The notes under the pieces: generated by a model | What the model saw: only the letters and a program-made list of their open reading frames with translations | The model's database searches: none | Told to the model about the DNA's origin: nothing | Program-made: the position numbers and the translations under genes | Part shown: one piece after another, positions 1 to 45,763 of the stretch | Layout of the letters: every line of letters starts with the position of its first letter | How positions within the stretch are numbered: the stretch's first letter is position 1 | Assembly: GCA_020724465.1 (NCBI GenBank) | Contig: DYGX01000013.1 | Location: forward strand, 30,901-94,900 | Reading direction: 5' to 3' | From: Thermoflexus sp. | Lineage (GTDB): Bacteria; Chloroflexota; Anaerolineae; Aggregatilineales; Aggregatilineaceae | Length of the DNA stretch: 64,000 nucleotides

Positions 1-353
1 GCAGCCAAGGGCAGCTAACAGCAGCTAACAACAGCTAAAGACAGCCAAAAGCAGCCAAGGGCAGCTAACAGCAGCTAACAACAGCTAAAGACAGCCAAAA
101 GCAGCACAAAAGCCGCCAGGACATGTGATGTAACCCGCTGCGGCTGCGCCAAACGCGGGATGGTTTGGCAGCGGGCCCAAGCCCGGCCCCTGCACATGGC
201 ACCAGATTTCCCCGCGCTCCGGTCTGCAAAACTCATCGCGTCTTCTATAGCAGCACAAAAGCAGCCAGGGCGCGTGGCGGCTCCTCGCTGCTTTTTGCTG
301 TTCATCGCTGTTTTTAGCTGCTTCTTGCTGCTTCTTGCTATTCCTCGCTGCCC
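1..353. repeat. Decamer inverted-array element, locus A (may continue left of the window)
   Basis: This gene-free stretch is an ordered array. Positions 1-110 are eleven 10-bp units of the form RCAGCYAARR, and 51-100 is an exact copy of 1-50, so five decamers form a 50-bp higher-order unit. Positions 281-350 hold seven units in the opposite orientation (YTYYTNGCTG), ending three bases before the stop codon of the minus-strand gene at 354. A 20-bp sequence at 101-120 recurs at 250-269 with one mismatch and brackets 129 bp of unrelated sequence. That inner segment has an 8-bp hairpin stem (CCCGCTGC at 134-141, GCAGCGGG at 168-175). A unit of ten bases cannot be a coding repeat. Related elements lie at 33243-33360 and 42717-42884. 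Confidence 0.9.
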
Positions 354-941
354 TCAGGGCGAGATGGCGCCGTACATCCACCAGAACTCGTCGCGCGGGT
401 AGACCTCTTGCAGCAGCGGATCGGTGATGAACGGCCCATCCGTCAGCAGGCGGCGAAGCTGCGTGTCAAGCTGGCGCAGCCGGGTCTGATGCTCGGGACT
501 GAGCACGTCGAGCCTGGCCGCCTCGCGGCTCAGGTGCTCGATAATCAGACGCTTCTCCGCTTGAACCGGGTACTCTTCGGCGCAGGACGCCCGTTTTTCG
601 CGGCAGTCTTCAAGATAGCGTTGGAGCGCGTTGAGACGGGCTTCGAGTTCCTGCTGGAGCTTCATCTCGTAATGCACGCTCCATTCGGACTGCTCGGCCT
701 CGAAGTTGATGCGCGCGTCCTGCACCATGTTCTGCTGTTCGGGCGAGAGATGGTCGCGCAGGCGCTCCAGGCGATACAGGCGCATCAGCAGCCCGCCGAC
801 CGTCAGGCGCGGGAGATCGCCGGAGAGATAGCCGTACAGCTCTTTTTCGTAGAGATACGGCGTCAGGTTGGCGGCCATCGCGCCCAGCGCACGCACATCG
901 CGCGCCAGGTCGTACGCCAGCGCCGGCGACTTGTCCGTCAT
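354..941 (-). CDS. Hypothetical protein with coiled-coil character
   Basis: A 195-residue protein that I do not recognise. The start chosen is the ATG at 941 (MTDKSPALAY), preceded by AAAGGT. An upstream in-frame start at 1055 would overlap the neighbouring gene and add a low-complexity arginine-rich leader. The sequence has no signal peptide or membrane segment. Residues from about 70 to 170 are rich in E, R, Q and L with heptad-like spacing, suggesting helical or coiled-coil structure. The C-terminus is aromatic (EFWWMYGAISP). It lies 37 bp downstream of another hypothetical gene (979-1383) and is probably co-transcribed with it. Its stop codon touches decamer element A. Confidence 0.6.
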   Translation of the reverse strand: MTDKSPALAYDLARDVRALGAMAANLTPYLYEKELYGYLSGDLPRLTVGGLLMRLYRLERLRDHLSPEQQNMVQDARINFEAEQSEWSVHYEMKLQQELEARLNALQRYLEDCREKRASCAEEYPVQAEKRLIIEHLSREAARLDVLSPEHQTRLRQLDTQLRRLLTDGPFITDPLLQEVYPRDEFWWMYGAISP

Positions 942-978
942 CGGCTGCGACCTTTCGCTGACCCGGTCCCGCTCTCGT

Positions 979-1383
979 TCATTTGGTGTACCGCCTGATG
1001 CTCTGGTAATTCGGGTTACCCTGAATCGCCTGCAGGCGCTCGTGCACATTGGCAAAATACCAGTGCGTCACCTGCTGGCCGTCCGGCTGGATGTACGACA
1101 CCGCCGGCAAAAAGCCGAGGATTTCCTGAATGCCCACCAGCAACTGGTCGGTGTTGGGGCCGGGCGTCGTTGTCAGCGTGAAGTAATCTTGGGGAACCCA
1201 CTCAATCGTCAGTGGCTGGCCGCGCCAGACACCAACCATTTTGAAGGGCGGCTCCGCGCTGACACAGTCAAAATATACATCCGCGATGCGGTGCGCCCAG
1301 AAGGTGTGGTTGACACGCTCTTCCAACAGGTACGCGCTGTGCTCCGGCTCTGCGTAAAACCAGGTCGTCGCATTAGTCGCCAT
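979..1383 (-). CDS. Hypothetical protein
   Basis: A 134-residue soluble protein of unknown function. The ATG at 1383 has a strong ribosome-binding site (AGGAGG) eight to ten bases upstream. The sequence is rich in aromatic residues and mixes beta-prone and helical stretches. No catalytic or metal-binding motif is visible and there is no signal peptide. It is the first gene of a probable two-gene minus-strand unit with the hypothetical gene at 354-941. It is divergent from the membrane-protein gene at 1577, so the 193-bp gap between them should hold both promoters. Confidence 0.6.
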   Translation of the reverse strand: MATNATTWFYAEPEHSAYLLEERVNHTFWAHRIADVYFDCVSAEPPFKMVGVWRGQPLTIEWVPQDYFTLTTTPGPNTDQLLVGIQEILGFLPAVSYIQPDGQQVTHWYFANVHERLQAIQGNPNYQSIRRYTK

Positions 1384-32270: not shown

Positions 32271-33242
32271 ATGGAATACACCTATCTTGGACGCACGGGC
32301 TTGCAGGTCAGCCGCCTGTGCCTGGGGACGATGAACTTCGGCCCTTACACCACCGAGCCAGATTCGTACGCCATCATGGACAAAGCTCTCGATCTGGGCA
32401 TCAACTTCTTCGATACGGCCAACGTCTACGGGCGCAAACAGGGCGAGGGCATCACCGAGCAGATCATCGGGCGTTGGTGGGCGCAGGGCGGCGGCCGGCG
32501 CGAAAAGGTCGTGCTGGCGACCAAGGTCTACGGCAAGATGGGCGACTGGCCCAACGAGTCAAAGCTCTCCGCCCGGCACATCAAGCAGGCCTGCGAAGGC
32601 AGCCTCAAGCGCCTGCAAACCGACTACATCGACCTCTACCAGATGCACCACATCGACCGCGACACGCCCTGGGAAGAGATCTGGCAGGCGATGGAACAGC
32701 TCGTGCAGGAAGGCAAGGTCATCTACGTTGGCAGCAGCAACTTCGCGGGCTGGCATATCGTCCAGGCCAACGAGCTTGCCAAACAGCGCCATTTCATGGG
32801 GCTGGTGTCCGAGCAGAGCCTCTACAACCTCACTGCCCGCACCATCGAGCTGGAAGTGATCCCCGCCTGCCAGGCCTACGGCGTGGGCATCATCCCCTGG
32901 AGTCCGCTGGCGGGCGGGGTGCTGGCCGGCGCGCTGGCGAAAGCATCCGAAGGCCGCCGCACCGAAGGCTGGGTCCAGGAGCGCATCGAGAAGCTGCGCC
33001 CGCAGCTTGAGAAGTGGGAGGCGTGGTGCAAGGAGCGGGGCGAGCATCCCGCGGACGTCGCGCTGGCCTGGCTGCTGCACCAGCCGGCAGTCACCGCGCC
33101 GATCATCGGCCCGCGCACGATGGAGCAGCTCACCGGCAGTCTGCGCGCGCTTGAGATCAAGCTGAGCGACGACGATCTCAAGGCCCTCGACGAGATCTGG
33201 CCTGGCCCCGGCGGCCCGGCGCCCGAAGCCTACGCCTGGTAA
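32271..33242 (+). CDS. Aldo/keto reductase
   Basis: A 323-residue (alpha/beta)8-barrel oxidoreductase. Catalytic residues are in place: Asp and Tyr in FFDTANVYG, Lys in LATKVYGK and His in LYQMHHID. The NADPH-binding end is SPLAGG and PIIGPRTMEQL. Substrate is unknown; the sequence resembles the YajO/oxidoreductase group. The ATG at 32271 has AAGGAG eleven bases upstream. Its stop codon abuts decamer element B, beyond which lspA converges. Confidence 0.9.
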   Translation: MEYTYLGRTGLQVSRLCLGTMNFGPYTTEPDSYAIMDKALDLGINFFDTANVYGRKQGEGITEQIIGRWWAQGGGRREKVVLATKVYGKMGDWPNESKLSARHIKQACEGSLKRLQTDYIDLYQMHHIDRDTPWEEIWQAMEQLVQEGKVIYVGSSNFAGWHIVQANELAKQRHFMGLVSEQSLYNLTARTIELEVIPACQAYGVGIIPWSPLAGGVLAGALAKASEGRRTEGWVQERIEKLRPQLEKWEAWCKERGEHPADVALAWLLHQPAVTAPIIGPRTMEQLTGSLRALEIKLSDDDLKALDEIWPGPGGPAPEAYAW

Positions 33243-33360
33243 GCTAAAGGCAGCAAAGGACAGCTAGAAACAGCGAAGAACAGCAAAAAGCAGCGGGGAA
33301 GCAATACACTTCAACCGCTGCTTTTTTGCTGTCTTTAGCTGCTTTTTGCTGCTTTTTGCT
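33243..33360. repeat. Decamer inverted-array element, locus B (bidirectional terminator-like)
   Basis: The whole gap between the convergent aldo/keto reductase and lspA genes is this element. The left arm has five 10-bp units starting CAGC (33251-33300). The right arm has four units in reverse orientation, one of them 11 bp. The core is AAAAAGCAGCGG (33285-33296) pairing with CCGCTGC (33315-33321), followed by six T residues. An equivalent A/T-flanked stem is read from the minus strand. GAAG...CTTC forms a small inner stem. Both stop codons lie at the very edges of the element. Confidence 0.9.
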
Positions 33361-33936
33361 TCAACCCACCGGCGTGTTTTCCTGGGAGCCGCCGTGCGCC
33401 GACTCGCCGCCGGCGCGTGCCGCGCGGCGCGCGCGCCATTCTTCGCGCAGCATCACCACCGCCAGCAGCGCCACCCCAATCGAAATGCAGCTATCGGCCA
33501 CGTTGAACACCGGAAAGCCCGGCACGTGCAGAAAGTCGATCACGGCGAAATCGAGCCGCAGCCGGTCGATGACGTTGCCCAGCGCCCCGCCCAACTGCAA
33601 TCCCAGGGCGGTCCGCACCAGCCAGGCCCCGCGTGGAAGCTGGCGATAGAAGTACAGGATCAGCAGCGAGATGACGGCGGCGATCGCCAGGAAGACCTGG
33701 CCGCCGCCCGGGAAGATCCCGAACGCCGCGCCGGTGTTGCGCACGTGGGTGATGCGGAAATAGGGCGCGATGACGTCCACCGGCATCCACGACTCGCCGC
33801 GTGCCAGATGCGCCACGACATACGCCTTGGTGGCCTGATCGACGGCGATCGTCAGACCGGCGACCCCGGCCAGAAACAGCCAGTGACGCAGCGACGTTCC
33901 GGGGGCTGTCGGTTGGATGAGCCGGGCGTCACTCAC
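33361..33936 (-). CDS. lspA: Lipoprotein signal peptidase (signal peptidase II)
   Basis: A 191-residue membrane aspartic protease that cleaves prolipoprotein signal peptides after lipidation. Four membrane helices are evident. The catalytic aspartates are in GGALGNVIDRL and FNVADSCISIG, and VRNTGAAFGIF is the third family block. The C-terminal extension after residue 165 (EWRARRAARAGGESAHG...) is charged and likely cytosolic. It starts two bases after the stop of the DksA-like gene and is the last gene of the T-box-led unit. Its stop codon touches decamer element B. Confidence 0.95.
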   Translation of the reverse strand: MSDARLIQPTAPGTSLRHWLFLAGVAGLTIAVDQATKAYVVAHLARGESWMPVDVIAPYFRITHVRNTGAAFGIFPGGGQVFLAIAAVISLLILYFYRQLPRGAWLVRTALGLQLGGALGNVIDRLRLDFAVIDFLHVPGFPVFNVADSCISIGVALLAVVMLREEWRARRAARAGGESAHGGSQENTPVG

Positions 33937-38597: not shown

Positions 38598-39597
38598 CGG
38601 TCAGCTCCGTCTCGGCGAGCGACCCGGCGGTCGCCGCACCGTCGATCACCCGCTGCGCCAGCGCCAGATCGGCGTCCAGCAGCGCCCGCAGCGGCGCGGC
38701 CTGCTCGCTGGCAAGCACCACGCGCCAGGCTTCCAGCGCCCCGGCCTGCCCGCGCAGCGCCTCGACCTGCCCGATGGCAGCTGCGCTCTGCCCCGTCCGC
38801 GCGTAGGCGCGCGCCAGCCACAGATGCGCGAGCAGGCGATAGCGGGCGTCCGGAATGCCCGCGCGGTGCGCGCGTTCCAGCGCCTCAATCGCCGCCGGCC
38901 AGTCCCCCTGTCGGTCGGCGATCATGCCCAGCGTGTGCGCCGCCTGCCAGCCCGCCGGGTCGCGGTCGAGGGCTTGCACGGCATAGGCGCGCGCCCGGTC
39001 AAACTGCCCCTGCTGAAGATCCAGCTCCGCCAGCCCCAGATAGCCCGCCGGGGCATCCGGCGCCAGCCTGACCGCCTGCTCATAATCGCGCCGGGCACGC
39101 TCCAGCGAGCCGTTGAGGCGGTGCAGCTCGGCGCGGAAGCGCAGATGCTCGGCGTCGCCCGGCTGCCCCTCGATCAGCCGGTCCATGACGGCGATCGCTT
39201 GCGGCAGCTCGTTGCGGCGCAGGTGCCGCACGGCGGCCTGGTAGGTCATGCTGGTGGGGCCGCGCCAGACGATATAGCTGGCCGCGATCCAGCCCAGGCC
39301 GGCCCCGCCGAAAAACACACCGAGGTCCGGAGTCAGCACGCCGGCCGCCACCAGCGCCAGGCCCGGCCCGAACGCCAGCAGCACCCGTCCCCGCGCCGCG
39401 CGCGGCACGCGGCTCCACAGCGCCGCGCCGAGCCCCGCCAGCACCAGCCAGAAGAGGGCAAGCTGCGCGGCAGGCAGCCAGTACGCCCCGGCATAGGCCA
39501 TCTGAAGCGCCGCGCCGGCGGCCAGCGCCAGCACCACCAGCGCCACCAGCCCGGCGAACCGACGCGGGCCAAACCAGCGCACCAGCGATCGCACCAT
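38584..39597 (-). CDS. Membrane protein with TPR repeats
   Basis: A 337-residue protein. About four hydrophobic segments occupy residues 10-110. Residues 115-330 form several tetratricopeptide repeats, recognisable by blocks such as AIAVMDRLIEGQPGDAEHLR, LERARRDYEQAVRLAPDAP and YLGLAELDLQQGQFDRARAY. TPR domains mediate protein contacts; whether this one faces inside or outside is unclear. It begins six bases after the GNAT gene in the T-box-led unit. Confidence 0.75.
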   Translation of the reverse strand: MVRSLVRWFGPRRFAGLVALVVLALAAGAALQMAYAGAYWLPAAQLALFWLVLAGLGAALWSRVPRAARGRVLLAFGPGLALVAAGVLTPDLGVFFGGAGLGWIAASYIVWRGPTSMTYQAAVRHLRRNELPQAIAVMDRLIEGQPGDAEHLRFRAELHRLNGSLERARRDYEQAVRLAPDAPAGYLGLAELDLQQGQFDRARAYAVQALDRDPAGWQAAHTLGMIADRQGDWPAAIEALERAHRAGIPDARYRLLAHLWLARAYARTGQSAAAIGQVEALRGQAGALEAWRVVLASEQAAPLRALLDADLALAQRVIDGAATAGSLAETELTDGRA

Positions 39598-39603
39598 CCC
39601 CGC

Positions 39604-40152
39604 CTACTCCTCGCGACGCACACGGATCCGCCGCACGCGGCGCCACCCATCGTCCGCGGTCAGATCGATCCGCATCCGGACCATCAGCGGCTCGCCGCCC
39701 ATGGCTTCCCAGAAGCGCAGGCCGTCCGGGTTGCGCGTGGCGACCTGCAGCTCCACCCGGTCCACGCCGCGCCGCGCAAACCAACGGTTGAGCGTGGTGA
39801 CCAGCTCGCGCGCGATGCCGCGCCCCCGCCAGGCCGGATCGACGAAGATGTCCGCGATGAAGCCCGCATCCACCCGCTCGAAGAGATCCGGGTGCAGGTC
39901 GACGATCGCGCCGAGCACGTAGCCGACCACCTCGCCGTCCACCTCGGCGACCAGCGTCAGGGCCGACGGGTCGTTGCGCCGCTCGATCAGGCGCGCCGCG
40001 TACCGTTCCGCCGCGCCCTCGGTCGCGCCGGGCAGGCGCGGATCCAGCGCCACGTGATAATCGGTCAGCATCCGCCACAGCCGCGCGATCGCAGCGGCGT
40101 CTTGCGGCTCGACCGGGCGGATCAGCGCGGTCTGCGAGCGTTTGTGCCTCAT
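39604..40152 (-). CDS. GNAT family N-acetyltransferase
   Basis: A 182-residue acetyltransferase. The acetyl-CoA-binding motif A is DPAWRGRGIARELV, preceded by FIADIFV and followed by LQVATRNPDGLRFWEAMG, the usual C-terminal block. Substrate is unknown. AGGA lies eight bases before the ATG at 40152; the ATG at 40161 is too close to that site and is less likely. It is the first gene after the T-box terminator, so the T-box controls it directly. Confidence 0.85.
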   Translation of the reverse strand: MRHKRSQTALIRPVEPQDAAAIARLWRMLTDYHVALDPRLPGATEGAAERYAARLIERRNDPSALTLVAEVDGEVVGYVLGAIVDLHPDLFERVDAGFIADIFVDPAWRGRGIARELVTTLNRWFARRGVDRVELQVATRNPDGLRFWEAMGGEPLMVRMRIDLTADDGWRRVRRIRVRREE

Positions 40153-40190
40153 CGATCCCATCCTGCCGGGCGCACGCGCGCCCCAAAATC

Positions 40191-40457
40191 AAAACGCTCC
40201 CATCCACACAAGGGACGGGAGCGCACGCTCTCGCGGTACCACCCTATTTCCCCGCCCGTGCGGGCAGGGCGCTCTGTGGCCACAAACATGGCCCGGTCCG
40301 GATAACGGGGACCAATCCGGCACAGCTTACTGGCGCGGCGCGCGTTCAGCCTGCGGCTCAGGAAGGATTTTCCGCTTGGCCGCCGGACCTGGCTCGCACC
40401 GCATCCAGGCTCGCTGACCGCCGGAACAAGCGTACTCGTTTCCGTCGTCGCCGTTAT
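40191..40457 (-). promoter_or_regulatory. T-box leader, probably responding to tRNA-Ile
   Basis: Read on the minus strand, the leader has all the main T-box parts. Stem I carries AGTA (near 40434), the CAGCGAGCCTGG AG-bulge region (about 40405-40418) and the GGTGCGAG distal loop. The T-box motif AGGGTGGTACCGCG is at 40232-40245. The terminator is an 11-bp stem (40195-40205 with 40213-40223) followed by TTTTGATTTT. The base after TGG is T, which pairs with an A discriminator base. GGAAAATCC on the 3' side of stem I offers ATC (40366-40368) as the specifier codon, which fits isoleucine and the ileS gene downstream. The specifier choice is inference; the T-box itself is clear. Confidence 0.92.
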
Positions 40458-42716: not shown

Positions 42717-42884
42717 GGGAACGGCGAAGAACGGCAGAGAGCAGCAAAGAACAGCGACGAGCAGCAAGGAACAATAAAAAAAGCAGCGGCGCGAGCTGTG
42801 CTCACTTCCCCGCTGCTTTTCACTGTTTTGTCGCTGTTGCTAGCTGTTTCTAGCTGCTTTGCGCTGCCTTTAGCTGCTCTTCGC
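42717..42884. repeat. Decamer inverted-array element, locus C (terminator-like)
   Basis: Between korB and the sucC promoter. The left arm (42717-42782) has about six 10-bp units such as GCAGCAAAGA and ACAGCGACGA. The right arm (42810-42884) has about seven in reverse orientation and ends at the korB stop codon. The core stem is GCAGCGG (42783-42789) with CCGCTGC (42810-42816); an inner GAGC-TGT-GCTC stem fills the loop. On the minus strand the stem is followed by seven T residues, fitting an intrinsic terminator for korAB. Confidence 0.9.
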
Positions 42885-43928
42885 TCAGTTGCAGCACGTC
42901 AGGCGGCGGTTGATCTCGTCCAGCACCTCGCGCGGCGGGCGCAGCTTTTCGGGCGGCAGATGGACCAGCGGCGTGTCGACCAGACGGCTGATCTCCGGCA
43001 GGGTGGCACGGTTCTCGTCCACATAGATCAGGCCGGTGATGAAAAGCTGCTGCTCGCGCGCCTCTTCCAGCAGGCGGAAGGCCGCCATCCGGTCGGTTGG
43101 ATCGTGCTTGGTGGGATCGAGCGCCTTCAGCATCAGATGCGAGCCGTCGTAGAGCTTCACCGCACGCACCTGCCCCGGCTCCTGATCCTCAATCTCGATC
43201 GGCTCATAGAACGGGATGAAGGTGATGTCGTGCAGTGGCTCTTCTTTGGCCTTGCCGTACGCATAGCTCTTGGTCGAATCCTCGTGGTTGTTGAACGTCA
43301 CGCACGGGCTGATGATGTCCAGCACAGCCGTGCCCCGGTGGGCGATCGCGGCCTTGAGCAGCTCGCGGACCTGCTTGGAATCGCCCGCGAACGAGCGCGC
43401 CACAAACGACGCGTCCGCTGCCAGCGCTTCCAGGCAGATATCGATCGGCGGCAGCTCGTTGACGCCGGCGTATTTCAGTTCCTGGCCGTAGTCCGCCGTG
43501 GCGGAGAACTGCCCTTTGGTCAGGCCGTAGACGCCGTTGTTCTCCACGATATAGACGATCGGCACGTTGCGGCGGACCATATGCTTGAACTGCCCCAGGC
43601 CGATGCTGCCGGTGTCGCCGTCGCCGCTGACCCCGATCGCGATCAGGCTGCGGTTGACGGTCGTCGCGCCCGTCGCCAGGGCCGGCATACGCCCGTGCAG
43701 CCCGTTGAAGCCGTGCGAGCGGTTGAGGAAATAGGCCGGCGACTTGCTGGAGCAGCCGATCCCGCTCAGCTTGATGACCTGGTGCGGATCAAGCGACATC
43801 TCGTAGGCAACGGCGATGATCTGGTTGGCGATGGAGTTGTGGCCGCAGCCCTGGCACAGGGTCGAGACCCCGCCCTTGTAATCATTGCGGCTGAGGCCGA
43901 TTTCGTTGACGCGAGCGTTTGCTGCCAT
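42885..43928 (-). CDS. korB: 2-oxoacid:ferredoxin oxidoreductase, beta subunit (KorB-like)
   Basis: A 347-residue thiamine-diphosphate subunit. CQGCGHNS and IGCSSKSPAYF contain cluster-ligand cysteines, and SGDGDTGSIG with a later ENNGVYGLT forms the ThDP/Mg2+ site. Together with the alpha subunit it oxidises a 2-oxoacid, most likely 2-oxoglutarate given the adjacent sucCD, to the acyl-CoA and reduces ferredoxin. The ATG at 43928 follows GGAAGG and overlaps nothing; the longer frame upstream is a shadow of korA. It is two bases from the korA stop codon. Confidence 0.93.
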   Translation of the reverse strand: MAANARVNEIGLSRNDYKGGVSTLCQGCGHNSIANQIIAVAYEMSLDPHQVIKLSGIGCSSKSPAYFLNRSHGFNGLHGRMPALATGATTVNRSLIAIGVSGDGDTGSIGLGQFKHMVRRNVPIVYIVENNGVYGLTKGQFSATADYGQELKYAGVNELPPIDICLEALAADASFVARSFAGDSKQVRELLKAAIAHRGTAVLDIISPCVTFNNHEDSTKSYAYGKAKEEPLHDITFIPFYEPIEIEDQEPGQVRAVKLYDGSHLMLKALDPTKHDPTDRMAAFRLLEEAREQQLFITGLIYVDENRATLPEISRLVDTPLVHLPPEKLRPPREVLDEINRRLTCCN

Positions 43929-43930
43929 GA

Positions 43931-45763
43931 CTAGCGACCTTCCTGTTCTAGAACGGCGGCCGTCAGCCAGCGCGGCGAAAGCGGCAGGCCGTCGGAATAT
44001 GCGATCGAGTGAATGCGCGGGGCCAGATCCGGGTATTCCATGTGCAGGATGCTTGCCATCTGGCCGTCGGTGTTGTTCTCCACCACGTAGACACGTTCGT
44101 GGCTTTCGATGAAGCGGCGCGTGGTGTCTTCCAGCGGCAGCGCGCGCAGACGCAGATAGCTGGTCATGACCCCGCGCGCGCTCAACTGGTCGCGCGCTTC
44201 GACCACGCAAGGGTCTGTCGAGCCAAACGCGATTAGCCCGATCTCCGCGCCGCTCACCTGGTCGACGACCGGCTTAGGCACCAGCGTGCGAGCCGTCTCC
44301 CACTTGCGCCGCAGCCGGGCCATGTTCTCGACCCAGTCGTCCGGGCGCTCGCTGTAGACGGCGCGGGCGTTGTGGCCGGTCCCACGGGCGAAGTACGCGC
44401 CGAGCGGGTGATCGATCCCCGGCAGCGTGCGATAGCCGATCCCGTCGCCATCCACATCCTCATAGCGCGCGAAGCGACCCGCCCGCTCGATGTCCTCAGC
44501 TGTCAGCACCTTGCCGCGGTCCATCGGCGCGTCCGGATACTCGAACGGATCGCTCATCCACAGGTTCATGCCCAGGTCCAGATCGGACAGGACGAAGACG
44601 AGCGTTTGCAGGCGCTCGGCCAGGTCAAAGGCGCGCCAGCCGTACTCGAAGATCTCGTTGATTGTGCCGGGCAGCAGCACGACATGGCGCGTGTCGCCGT
44701 GGCCGAGCAGATAGCAGGTCAGCACGTCGCCCTGCGAGGTGCGCGTCGGCAGCCCGGTGCTGGGACCCATACGCTGCACGTCCCAGATCACCGCTGGGAC
44801 CTCGGCGTAGTAGGCCAGGCCCGCGAACTCGGTCATCAGCGAAATGCCAGGGCCAGAGGTGGCGGTCATCGCCCGCGCGCCGGCCCACCCCGCGCCGACC
44901 ACCATGCCGATCGCGCCGATCTCGTCCTCGGCCTGGATCACGGCGAAGGTCGCCTTGCCCGTCTCCGGGTCGATGCGATACTTCGCCAGGTCTTCGCGCA
45001 GCGCGTCGATCAGGCTGGTCGAGGGGGTGATCGGATACCACGCGGCGAACGTCACGCCGCCGAAGACCGCGCCGAGCGCCGCCGCCGAGTTGCCGTCCAT
45101 CAACAGCCGGCCCTCGGTGGCGTTCATCGGCTCAACGGCATACGGATCGCGCTTGGCGAGGTGATCCTGCGCCCAGTCGTAGGCCGCCTGCACGACCTTC
45201 ATGTTCATCTGAACCGGCTTGGCCTTGCCGTTGAAGTGATAGTCGAGCGCGCCCTCGATGTACGACAGCTCGATGTTGAGCATGGTCGCCAGCACGCCCA
45301 CATAGACCATGTTGGCGATGTACGACGACAGGTTGGCCGGCACGTCGCTGGCGTCGGTCAGCGCCTTGACCGGCATGGGATAGTACACGATGTCGTCGCG
45401 CTCGTGCTTAAGGTTCCACTCTTCGGGGTAATAGCAGGCGCCGCCGGGCGCGAGATTGGCGATGTCGTCGGCGGCGGTTTGCTGGTTCATGGCGACCAGG
45501 ACGTGATAGTCCTCAAGCCGCGCCGTGTAACCATTTTTGCTCAGGCGGATGGTGTACCAGGTGGGGAGTCCCTGAATATTCGATGGAAAGATATTCTTCC
45601 CGCTCACCGGAATGCCCATGCGAAACATGGCGCGCAGCAGGACGGTGTTGGCCGTCTGGCTGCCCGAGCCGTTCACGGTGGCGATCATGATCTGGAAGTC
45701 GTTGACCACGGCTGGTTTTTCGGCCAGCACGTCTTCCAGCGGAAGATCCTGGATTGTGCTCAT
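43931..45763 (-). CDS. korA: 2-oxoacid:ferredoxin oxidoreductase, fused gamma-alpha subunit (KorA-like)
   Basis: A 610-residue fusion of gamma (about 20-190, starting MIATVNGSGSQTANTVLLRA) and alpha parts (about 215-600, with AWYPITPSTSL and QAEDEIGAIGMVVGAGWAG). It forms the 2-oxoglutarate-type two-subunit enzyme with KorB. No ferredoxin-like delta gene is present, as is usual for the KorAB layout. The ATG at 45763 follows AGGAG. A GntR regulator gene ends 168 bp upstream. Confidence 0.93.
   Translation of the reverse strand: MSTIQDLPLEDVLAEKPAVVNDFQIMIATVNGSGSQTANTVLLRAMFRMGIPVSGKNIFPSNIQGLPTWYTIRLSKNGYTARLEDYHVLVAMNQQTAADDIANLAPGGACYYPEEWNLKHERDDIVYYPMPVKALTDASDVPANLSSYIANMVYVGVLATMLNIELSYIEGALDYHFNGKAKPVQMNMKVVQAAYDWAQDHLAKRDPYAVEPMNATEGRLLMDGNSAAALGAVFGGVTFAAWYPITPSTSLIDALREDLAKYRIDPETGKATFAVIQAEDEIGAIGMVVGAGWAGARAMTATSGPGISLMTEFAGLAYYAEVPAVIWDVQRMGPSTGLPTRTSQGDVLTCYLLGHGDTRHVVLLPGTINEIFEYGWRAFDLAERLQTLVFVLSDLDLGMNLWMSDPFEYPDAPMDRGKVLTAEDIERAGRFARYEDVDGDGIGYRTLPGIDHPLGAYFARGTGHNARAVYSERPDDWVENMARLRRKWETARTLVPKPVVDQVSGAEIGLIAFGSTDPCVVEARDQLSARGVMTSYLRLRALPLEDTTRRFIESHERVYVVENNTDGQMASILHMEYPDLAPRIHSIAYSDGLPLSPRWLTAAVLEQEGR

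Follow-up and report, generated by a model that had tools for sequence, protein, structure and literature searches.

Gene-end repeats built from 10-bp CAGC units in opposed arms within one Anaerolineae genus

The window analyzed here is a stretch of 64,000 nucleotides (contig C49, positions 30901–94900) from a 4.42-Mb Anaerolineae (Chloroflexota) genome (G000; ~67% GC), whose nearest named relative, with an IleS 97% identical, is the MAG Anaerolinea sp. Tomsk_5_66_7. Three gaps in the window, loci A, B, and C, share a design that the initial annotation had recognized and that inspection of the sequence bears out, with 10-bp units close to CAGCNAARRR in one arm facing their reverse complement in the opposite arm (Table 1). 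Locus B (33241–33361) fills a convergent gap, as had been reported, with the stop codon of an aldo-keto reductase gene (plus strand, 33242) at one edge and that of lspA (minus strand, 33361) at the other. The locus A gap, which had not been described in this way, is also convergent, and the locus C gap is co-directional, with the order por end, element, promoter-like site, and sucC. The GCAGCGG/CCGCTGC cores noted for two of the loci are present at 33290–33296/33315–33321 in locus B and 42783–42789/42810–42816 in locus C; locus A has no GC hairpin core flanked by runs of A and T, and a GC-rich core of this kind is missing from most elements genome-wide. Unit counts are uncertain in the left arm of locus A, which is interrupted to the left of window position 1 by an N run (assembly gap) next to the 50-bp duplication listed in Table 1. 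Elsewhere in the window, a T-box leader (RF00230) scored above the gathering score at 40208–40457 (minus strand), ~2.6 kb upstream of ileS on the same strand; it lies upstream of ORF 39080–40207, which had no Pfam or NCBIfam match.

Table 1. Features of the three loci in window coordinates. G001 is a second genome of the same genus.
Feature	Position	Strand	Remarks
Locus A left arm	1..118	+	Extends left beyond the window, past the N run; 50-bp perfect tandem duplication
Locus A right arm	281..350	-	Seven units; end near stop of ORF 354-1055 (minus)
Aldo-keto reductase gene	32271..33242	+	Left flank of locus B
Locus B left arm	33241..33300	+	Six CAGC-type units; begins within aldo-keto reductase stop TAA 33240-33242
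Locus B core hairpin, GCAGCGG ... CCGCTGC	33290..33321		T-runs outward; G001 keeps most of the loop
Locus B right arm	33322..33361	-	Four units (GCTG on + strand); ends at lspA stop 33361-33363
lspA (signal peptidase II)	33361..33936	-	Right flank of locus B
Locus C left arm	42722..42781	+	Six units
Locus C core hairpin, GCAGCGG ... CCGCTGC, inner stem	42783..42816		Equivalent present in G001
Locus C right arm	42807..42886	-	Eight units; ends inside stop of 2-oxoacid:ferredoxin oxidoreductase beta (gene 42885-44210, minus)

We scored 10-bp units with a position weight matrix (PWM) and chained them across 1.21 Mb and then 1.95 Mb of G000 and across 0.46 Mb of G001; the second-batch G000 contigs and most G001 contigs were partly picked for carrying the pattern, which biases densities there. 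The PWM consensus was C86 A91 G97 C94 N A88 A70 R R R, and the unit can be summarized as (R)CAGCNAARR, in which CAGC is kept at 86–98%, the following base is free, and A and R follow. Spacing between units was exactly 10 bp in 691 of 739 steps. Elements were ~100–330 bp long, with runs of ~3–17 units and arms that point inward, the CAGC arm preceding the GCTG arm, such that the overall order is stop codon, CAGC arm, a turn or short hairpin core, GCTG arm, and the next stop codon or next ribosome-binding site. At 39 loci there was a single arm, which showed the identical unit pattern without a pairing partner. A-tracts of at least 4 occurred in just 24% of units, and U-tracts within units averaged ~3.5 T of 6, as calculated from PWM base frequencies. 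Both a CRISPR array and a coding origin had been discounted at the outset, and we agree, as the 10-bp units run head-to-tail with no spacers, the period is 10, and 0 arrays lay wholly inside genes.

The three loci belong to a genome-wide family. A 27-base IUPAC pattern of CAGCNAARRR-like units matched the genome 524 times and the reversed control 0 times, and a PWM chain scan of 1.21 Mb found 59 arms (median 82 bits) compared to 3 in reversed sequence, all at the lowest scores, indicating that the arms are not a product of chance. At period 10 there were 156 CAGC triplets, compared to 1–2 for periods 7 and 8 and a single one each for periods 11 and 13. Three genomes of the genus (G000, G001, and G002) carry the family densely, with occurrences at well over a hundred gene ends, and ~850 others are at background level. 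When up to 3 mismatches were allowed, a 22-base probe gave 138, 83, and 34 matches, respectively, in these three genomes and 0 or 1 in 58 other relatives. The IUPAC probe found only control levels in 395 other genomes of the class, and a longer probe was missing from 398 of 399 other sampled genomes, the sole exception being a perfect repeat run elsewhere in the phylum. Gap B of MAG SJ484 (L056), with an LspA identity of 80%, also carries an element, and the family therefore covers several species. A viral origin was rejected, as the five viral-contig matches were perfect 10-mer runs in another context on contigs of 39–53% GC; those in L285–L287 (IMG/VR) were perfect CAGCCAAGAG runs at the ends of contigs with 39–41% GC and resembled unrelated microsatellite-type repeats. 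A plasmid search matched the reductase gene and nothing else. No Rfam 15 family matched the element at the gathering score, and the sub-threshold matches were microRNA families. The initial annotation knew of no described element of this form, and our literature searches likewise found no match.

Elements are concentrated where genes end. The 76 loci in 1.95 Mb of G000 were distributed over 33 convergent, 37 co-directional, and 6 divergent gaps, with 0 inside genes. Relative to all gaps of at least 60 bp, and with one locus counted as one gap, these correspond to 33 of 130 convergent, 37 of 624 co-directional, and 6 of 219 divergent gaps, counts that are approximate because genes were called by our own hexamer-based caller. 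The bias toward convergent over divergent gaps (P = 1.5e-10) was also seen in the first 1.21 Mb alone (37 loci). Outer edges were locked to a stop codon in 107 of the 125 arms adjoining a gene end: 61 of 125 start within 3 bp of the last stop-codon base, and 46 of 125 overlap it, with TAA or TAG lying within a unit. These results bear out the enrichment at gene 3′ ends that the initial annotation had proposed as a check. Two outcomes that it had named as refuting, a lack of further copies and a lack of any link to 3′ ends, did not occur. Its rule that each element ends at the stop codon of a minus-strand gene holds with respect to the stop codon but not the strand, as elements across the genome abut stop codons whichever gene ends there. 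Some arrays encode the final residues of a protein (tails such as AKSS, AKGS, and AESS); at G000:C24:113150 and G000:C29:59262, for example, array units give the stop codon and last residues (up to ~16 in such cases), and array-encoded C-terminal tails may differ between species. On the other side, ~21 of 55 start-facing arms halt 2–21 bp before the start codon (often 11–21 bp), leaving space for a ribosome-binding site and none for a promoter. In convergent two-arm gaps, a median of 7 bp remained beyond the arrays, and 30 bp or less remained in 29 of 34. Lone units that could be seeds followed the stops of other genes in 18 of 786 cases.

To follow the elements between species, we mapped locus flanks to G001 (~93% nucleotide identity). 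A G001 counterpart was present for 30 of 32 elements, the two exceptions being single arms of 3 and 7 units, and true hairpin cores, where present, were conserved. Unit number was equal between species in only 14–18% of arms. Exact words of at least 35 bp were common to different loci in 10 pairs compared to 0–2 in controls. Identical runs of ~five CAGCTAAGAA units occur in G000 at C29:37047, C22:233114, C24:113149, and C24:131938, which may reflect exchange among loci or a single unit that expanded repeatedly. Spread driven by a transposase was rejected because Y1/RAYT-type genes (Y1_Tnp) are not expanded, with 3 in G000, 1 in G001, 1 in G002, and similar numbers in relatives that lack the repeat.

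The two arms of an element differ from each other more than arms drawn from different elements. Variable positions agreed in 0.42 of own-partner comparisons and 0.46 of comparisons swapped within genome and context (z about -6); this anti-similarity was seen in each species separately (z -5.4 and -3.5) and remained once arm class was matched (z -3.8). The longest exact inverted match averaged 10.2 bp for own arms compared to 12.1 bp between elements. A mixture model resolved two arm types, ~CAGC-T-AAA-R-R and ~CAGC-R-AAGA-R. Under a two-class model, 55 of 71 elements were mixed; under a three-class model, 41 elements were mixed between two sharp types and just 3 had one sharp type on both sides. 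The arm type scores of the two arms were correlated at -0.67, and the polarity of arm types was preserved between G000 and G001 in 14 of 17 clear cases. Setting of arm type by the replication strand was rejected, as the correlation with GC skew was weak (-0.22). The difference between arms would most likely arise because perfect palindromes are lost or selected against. An ancestor that was already mixed may have added to it, although such descent leaves the residual difference after class matching unexplained.

The usual hairpin was missing where elements were present. Local hairpins were strong in convergent gaps without an element (median best 45-nt dG -25.3), whereas the corresponding value was -19.2 for convergent gaps with a two-arm element and -20.5 for random genome sequence. 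Compact GC hairpins with T-runs exist at the cores of loci B and C, but the best local hairpin in two-arm gaps is in general no stronger than that of random genome. In other genera, the gap between lspA and the aldo-keto reductase gene carried a GC-rich terminator-type inverted repeat in most of six comparison loci (L032, L033, L036, L038, L040, and L055) and units in none. Either the element does the job of a terminator, or element-bearing genes end without a local hairpin. Loss of Rho was rejected as a cause, as Rho is encoded in the genome.

Several functions can be weighed against these observations. The initial annotation had suggested that the arms form long RNA hairpins at mRNA 3′ ends, which might stabilize transcripts or be cut by RNase III. 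Arms can indeed pair in register in predicted folds, with dG values from -30 to -179 kcal/mol, but five-unit arms folded less stably with their own partner (-46.2 kcal/mol) than with swapped partners (-49.4 and -50.4 kcal/mol), and pairing was weaker on both strands. Covariation would be expected if the arms paired in RNA, and the opposite was found: the free base showed no compensatory signal, and the last three positions matched less often. In co-directional loci, moreover, the sense strand was not stabler than the antisense strand (19 of 32, P 0.17). The lower similarity and lower predicted stability of own arms relative to swapped arms speak against selection for a long RNA hairpin, and we regard this role as very unlikely. 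The suggestion that phased A-rich tracts bend the DNA fared better in one respect, as predicted curvature was ~60 degrees per 60 bp compared to a genome mean of 18 (wedge model), but curvature does not explain a period of exactly 10 because an 11-bp period bends as much in this model (60.1 compared to 60.6). An element acting at the DNA level, in which helically phased CAGCNA sites in curved, A-rich DNA would bind a nucleoid or other protein in rows, is consistent with the predicted bend, the exact spacing and position-specific conservation of units, and the persistence of the pattern in single arms. However, no genus-specific protein was identified, longer A-tracts are confined to the minority of units noted above, and a purely DNA role would leave the link to stop codons unexplained; we consider such an element unlikely. 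The pause consensus G-10 Y-1 G+1 (PMC6062546) can recur along an array only when the period is exactly 10. In the GCTG direction this arrangement occupied 12.5% of positions, compared to 1.4% in the CAGC direction and 6.3% in the genome, an enrichment of just ~twofold over background, and it is a lead only, because the most conserved bases of the unit are not the pause bases. Duplication in steps of ten would also keep the period. A polar array at a gene-end boundary could be envisaged, in which each unit would be a pause-type site for polymerase entering the gene from its 3′ side and not for polymerase leaving it, and in which the arms would differ and so avoid a perfect DNA or RNA hairpin, but we think this quite unlikely.

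Our preferred reading, held tentatively and judged somewhat short of probable, is that of a lineage-specific gene-end element that stands in place of ordinary, mostly bidirectional terminators, gains and loses 10-bp units, and is prevented from turning into a perfect palindrome. It joins features that we observed (where elements lie, their phase, their locking to stop codons, the lack of the usual local hairpin, their turnover, and their unlike arms) and would involve termination or stalling, slippage, and palindrome instability. From either side, RNA polymerase would copy a purine-rich arm first and then encounter the GCTG/U-rich arm, which would in every 10 bp present a short U-tract, a pause-like G-10 Y-1 G+1, and a sequence able to pair with CAGC upstream; because these features repeat with every unit, transcripts would end or stall somewhere along the array and at no single point. 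The locus would stay put while units come and go ten bases at a time, with slippage or unequal exchange as the probable mechanism, and perfect palindromes may be unstable or harmful, so that only elements with unlike arms would persist, giving two arm types with a CAGCTAAARR-like arm facing a CAGCRAAGAR-like one. Arguing against a terminator are the weak U-tracts, the single-arm loci, the lower stability of own-arm hairpins, the modest pause enrichment, and the presence of Rho, which puts other termination at hand; in addition, a full terminator in start-facing arms without room for a promoter would silence the next gene. The main rival is a selfish or neutral repeat of the REP/BIME or BOX kind that fills dispensable gaps, which is possible but in our estimate doubtful. 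Such a repeat would grow by duplication in place and deletion of spacer until bounded only by coding sequence or ribosome-binding sites, and enrichment in convergent gaps would reflect an absence of constraint. Turnover of unit number between species, stop-codon locking, including arms that themselves supply the stop codon, extension up to ribosome-binding sites, higher-order internal repeats and long exact words shared between loci, and confinement to one genus are all consistent with it. Plain duplication, however, would not produce units with a conserved CAGC, a free next base, and purine-varying last four positions, and conservation of nearly all loci in G001 and the lack of transposase amplification alongside the family also argue against it. 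A clean insertion junction was not seen in the one comparison, of a candidate empty site in sampled G002 sequence with G000, but the two regions were too diverged for a junction to be read.

In distribution and dynamics, the element is most like REP/BIME or BOX, and in position it is like an expanded bidirectional terminator; those defining features of REP/BIME, BOX, and intrinsic terminators that we tested are absent or not clearly present. REP/BIME sequences are short inverted repeats that lie outside genes in high copy and are specific to a lineage; they have been proposed to act in termination, mRNA stability, and supercoiling (PMC3733652, PMC2817692). REPs are palindromic units of 20–40 bp whose palindromes are preserved; many bear a GTAG/CGTC tag, and a RAYT is associated with them. 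The 10-bp element is likewise extragenic, high in copy, and lineage-specific, but its units are non-palindromic 10-mers that do not fold on themselves, only opposite arms pair, these arms shun complementarity, and RAYT-type genes are not amplified. BOX of Streptococcus pneumoniae (~125 per genome) contains internal boxB modules whose number varies between strains (PMC3049150); it is similarly interspersed and variable in module number but has fixed boxA/boxC ends and longer modules, whereas here the units themselves form both arms and no common end sequence was found, the edges being a stop codon or ribosome-binding site. Bidirectional intrinsic terminators are also inverted and lie between convergent genes, and loci B and C share a GC core flanked by A/T runs; the present elements differ in being ~100–330 bp long and 10-bp periodic, often with no GC core and with weak U-tracts. 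What is new here is that an element's own arms resemble each other less, and form weaker predicted folds, than arms exchanged between elements, and this avoidance of self-complementarity provides a natural data set for how strongly a genome opposes perfect palindromes. Genus-confined repeats appear to have replaced terminators at conserved positions with their sequence rebuilt in 10-bp steps, and the exact period offers a testable link between repeat design and the behavior of RNA polymerase. The TAACTGA heptamers of Beggiatoaceae are intergenic direct repeats, some of which overlap stop codons and supply stops in all frames (PMC4679880); they too are short direct repeats in many intergenic gaps but have a 7-bp unit in one orientation, lie mostly before start codons, and lack opposed arms. 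Tandem heptamer arrays with differing units also occur in other Chloroflexota, with 14 runs of at least 3.5 copies at L051, L060, L068, L073, L080, L089, L092, L107, and L108, representing another short-repeat habit in the phylum.
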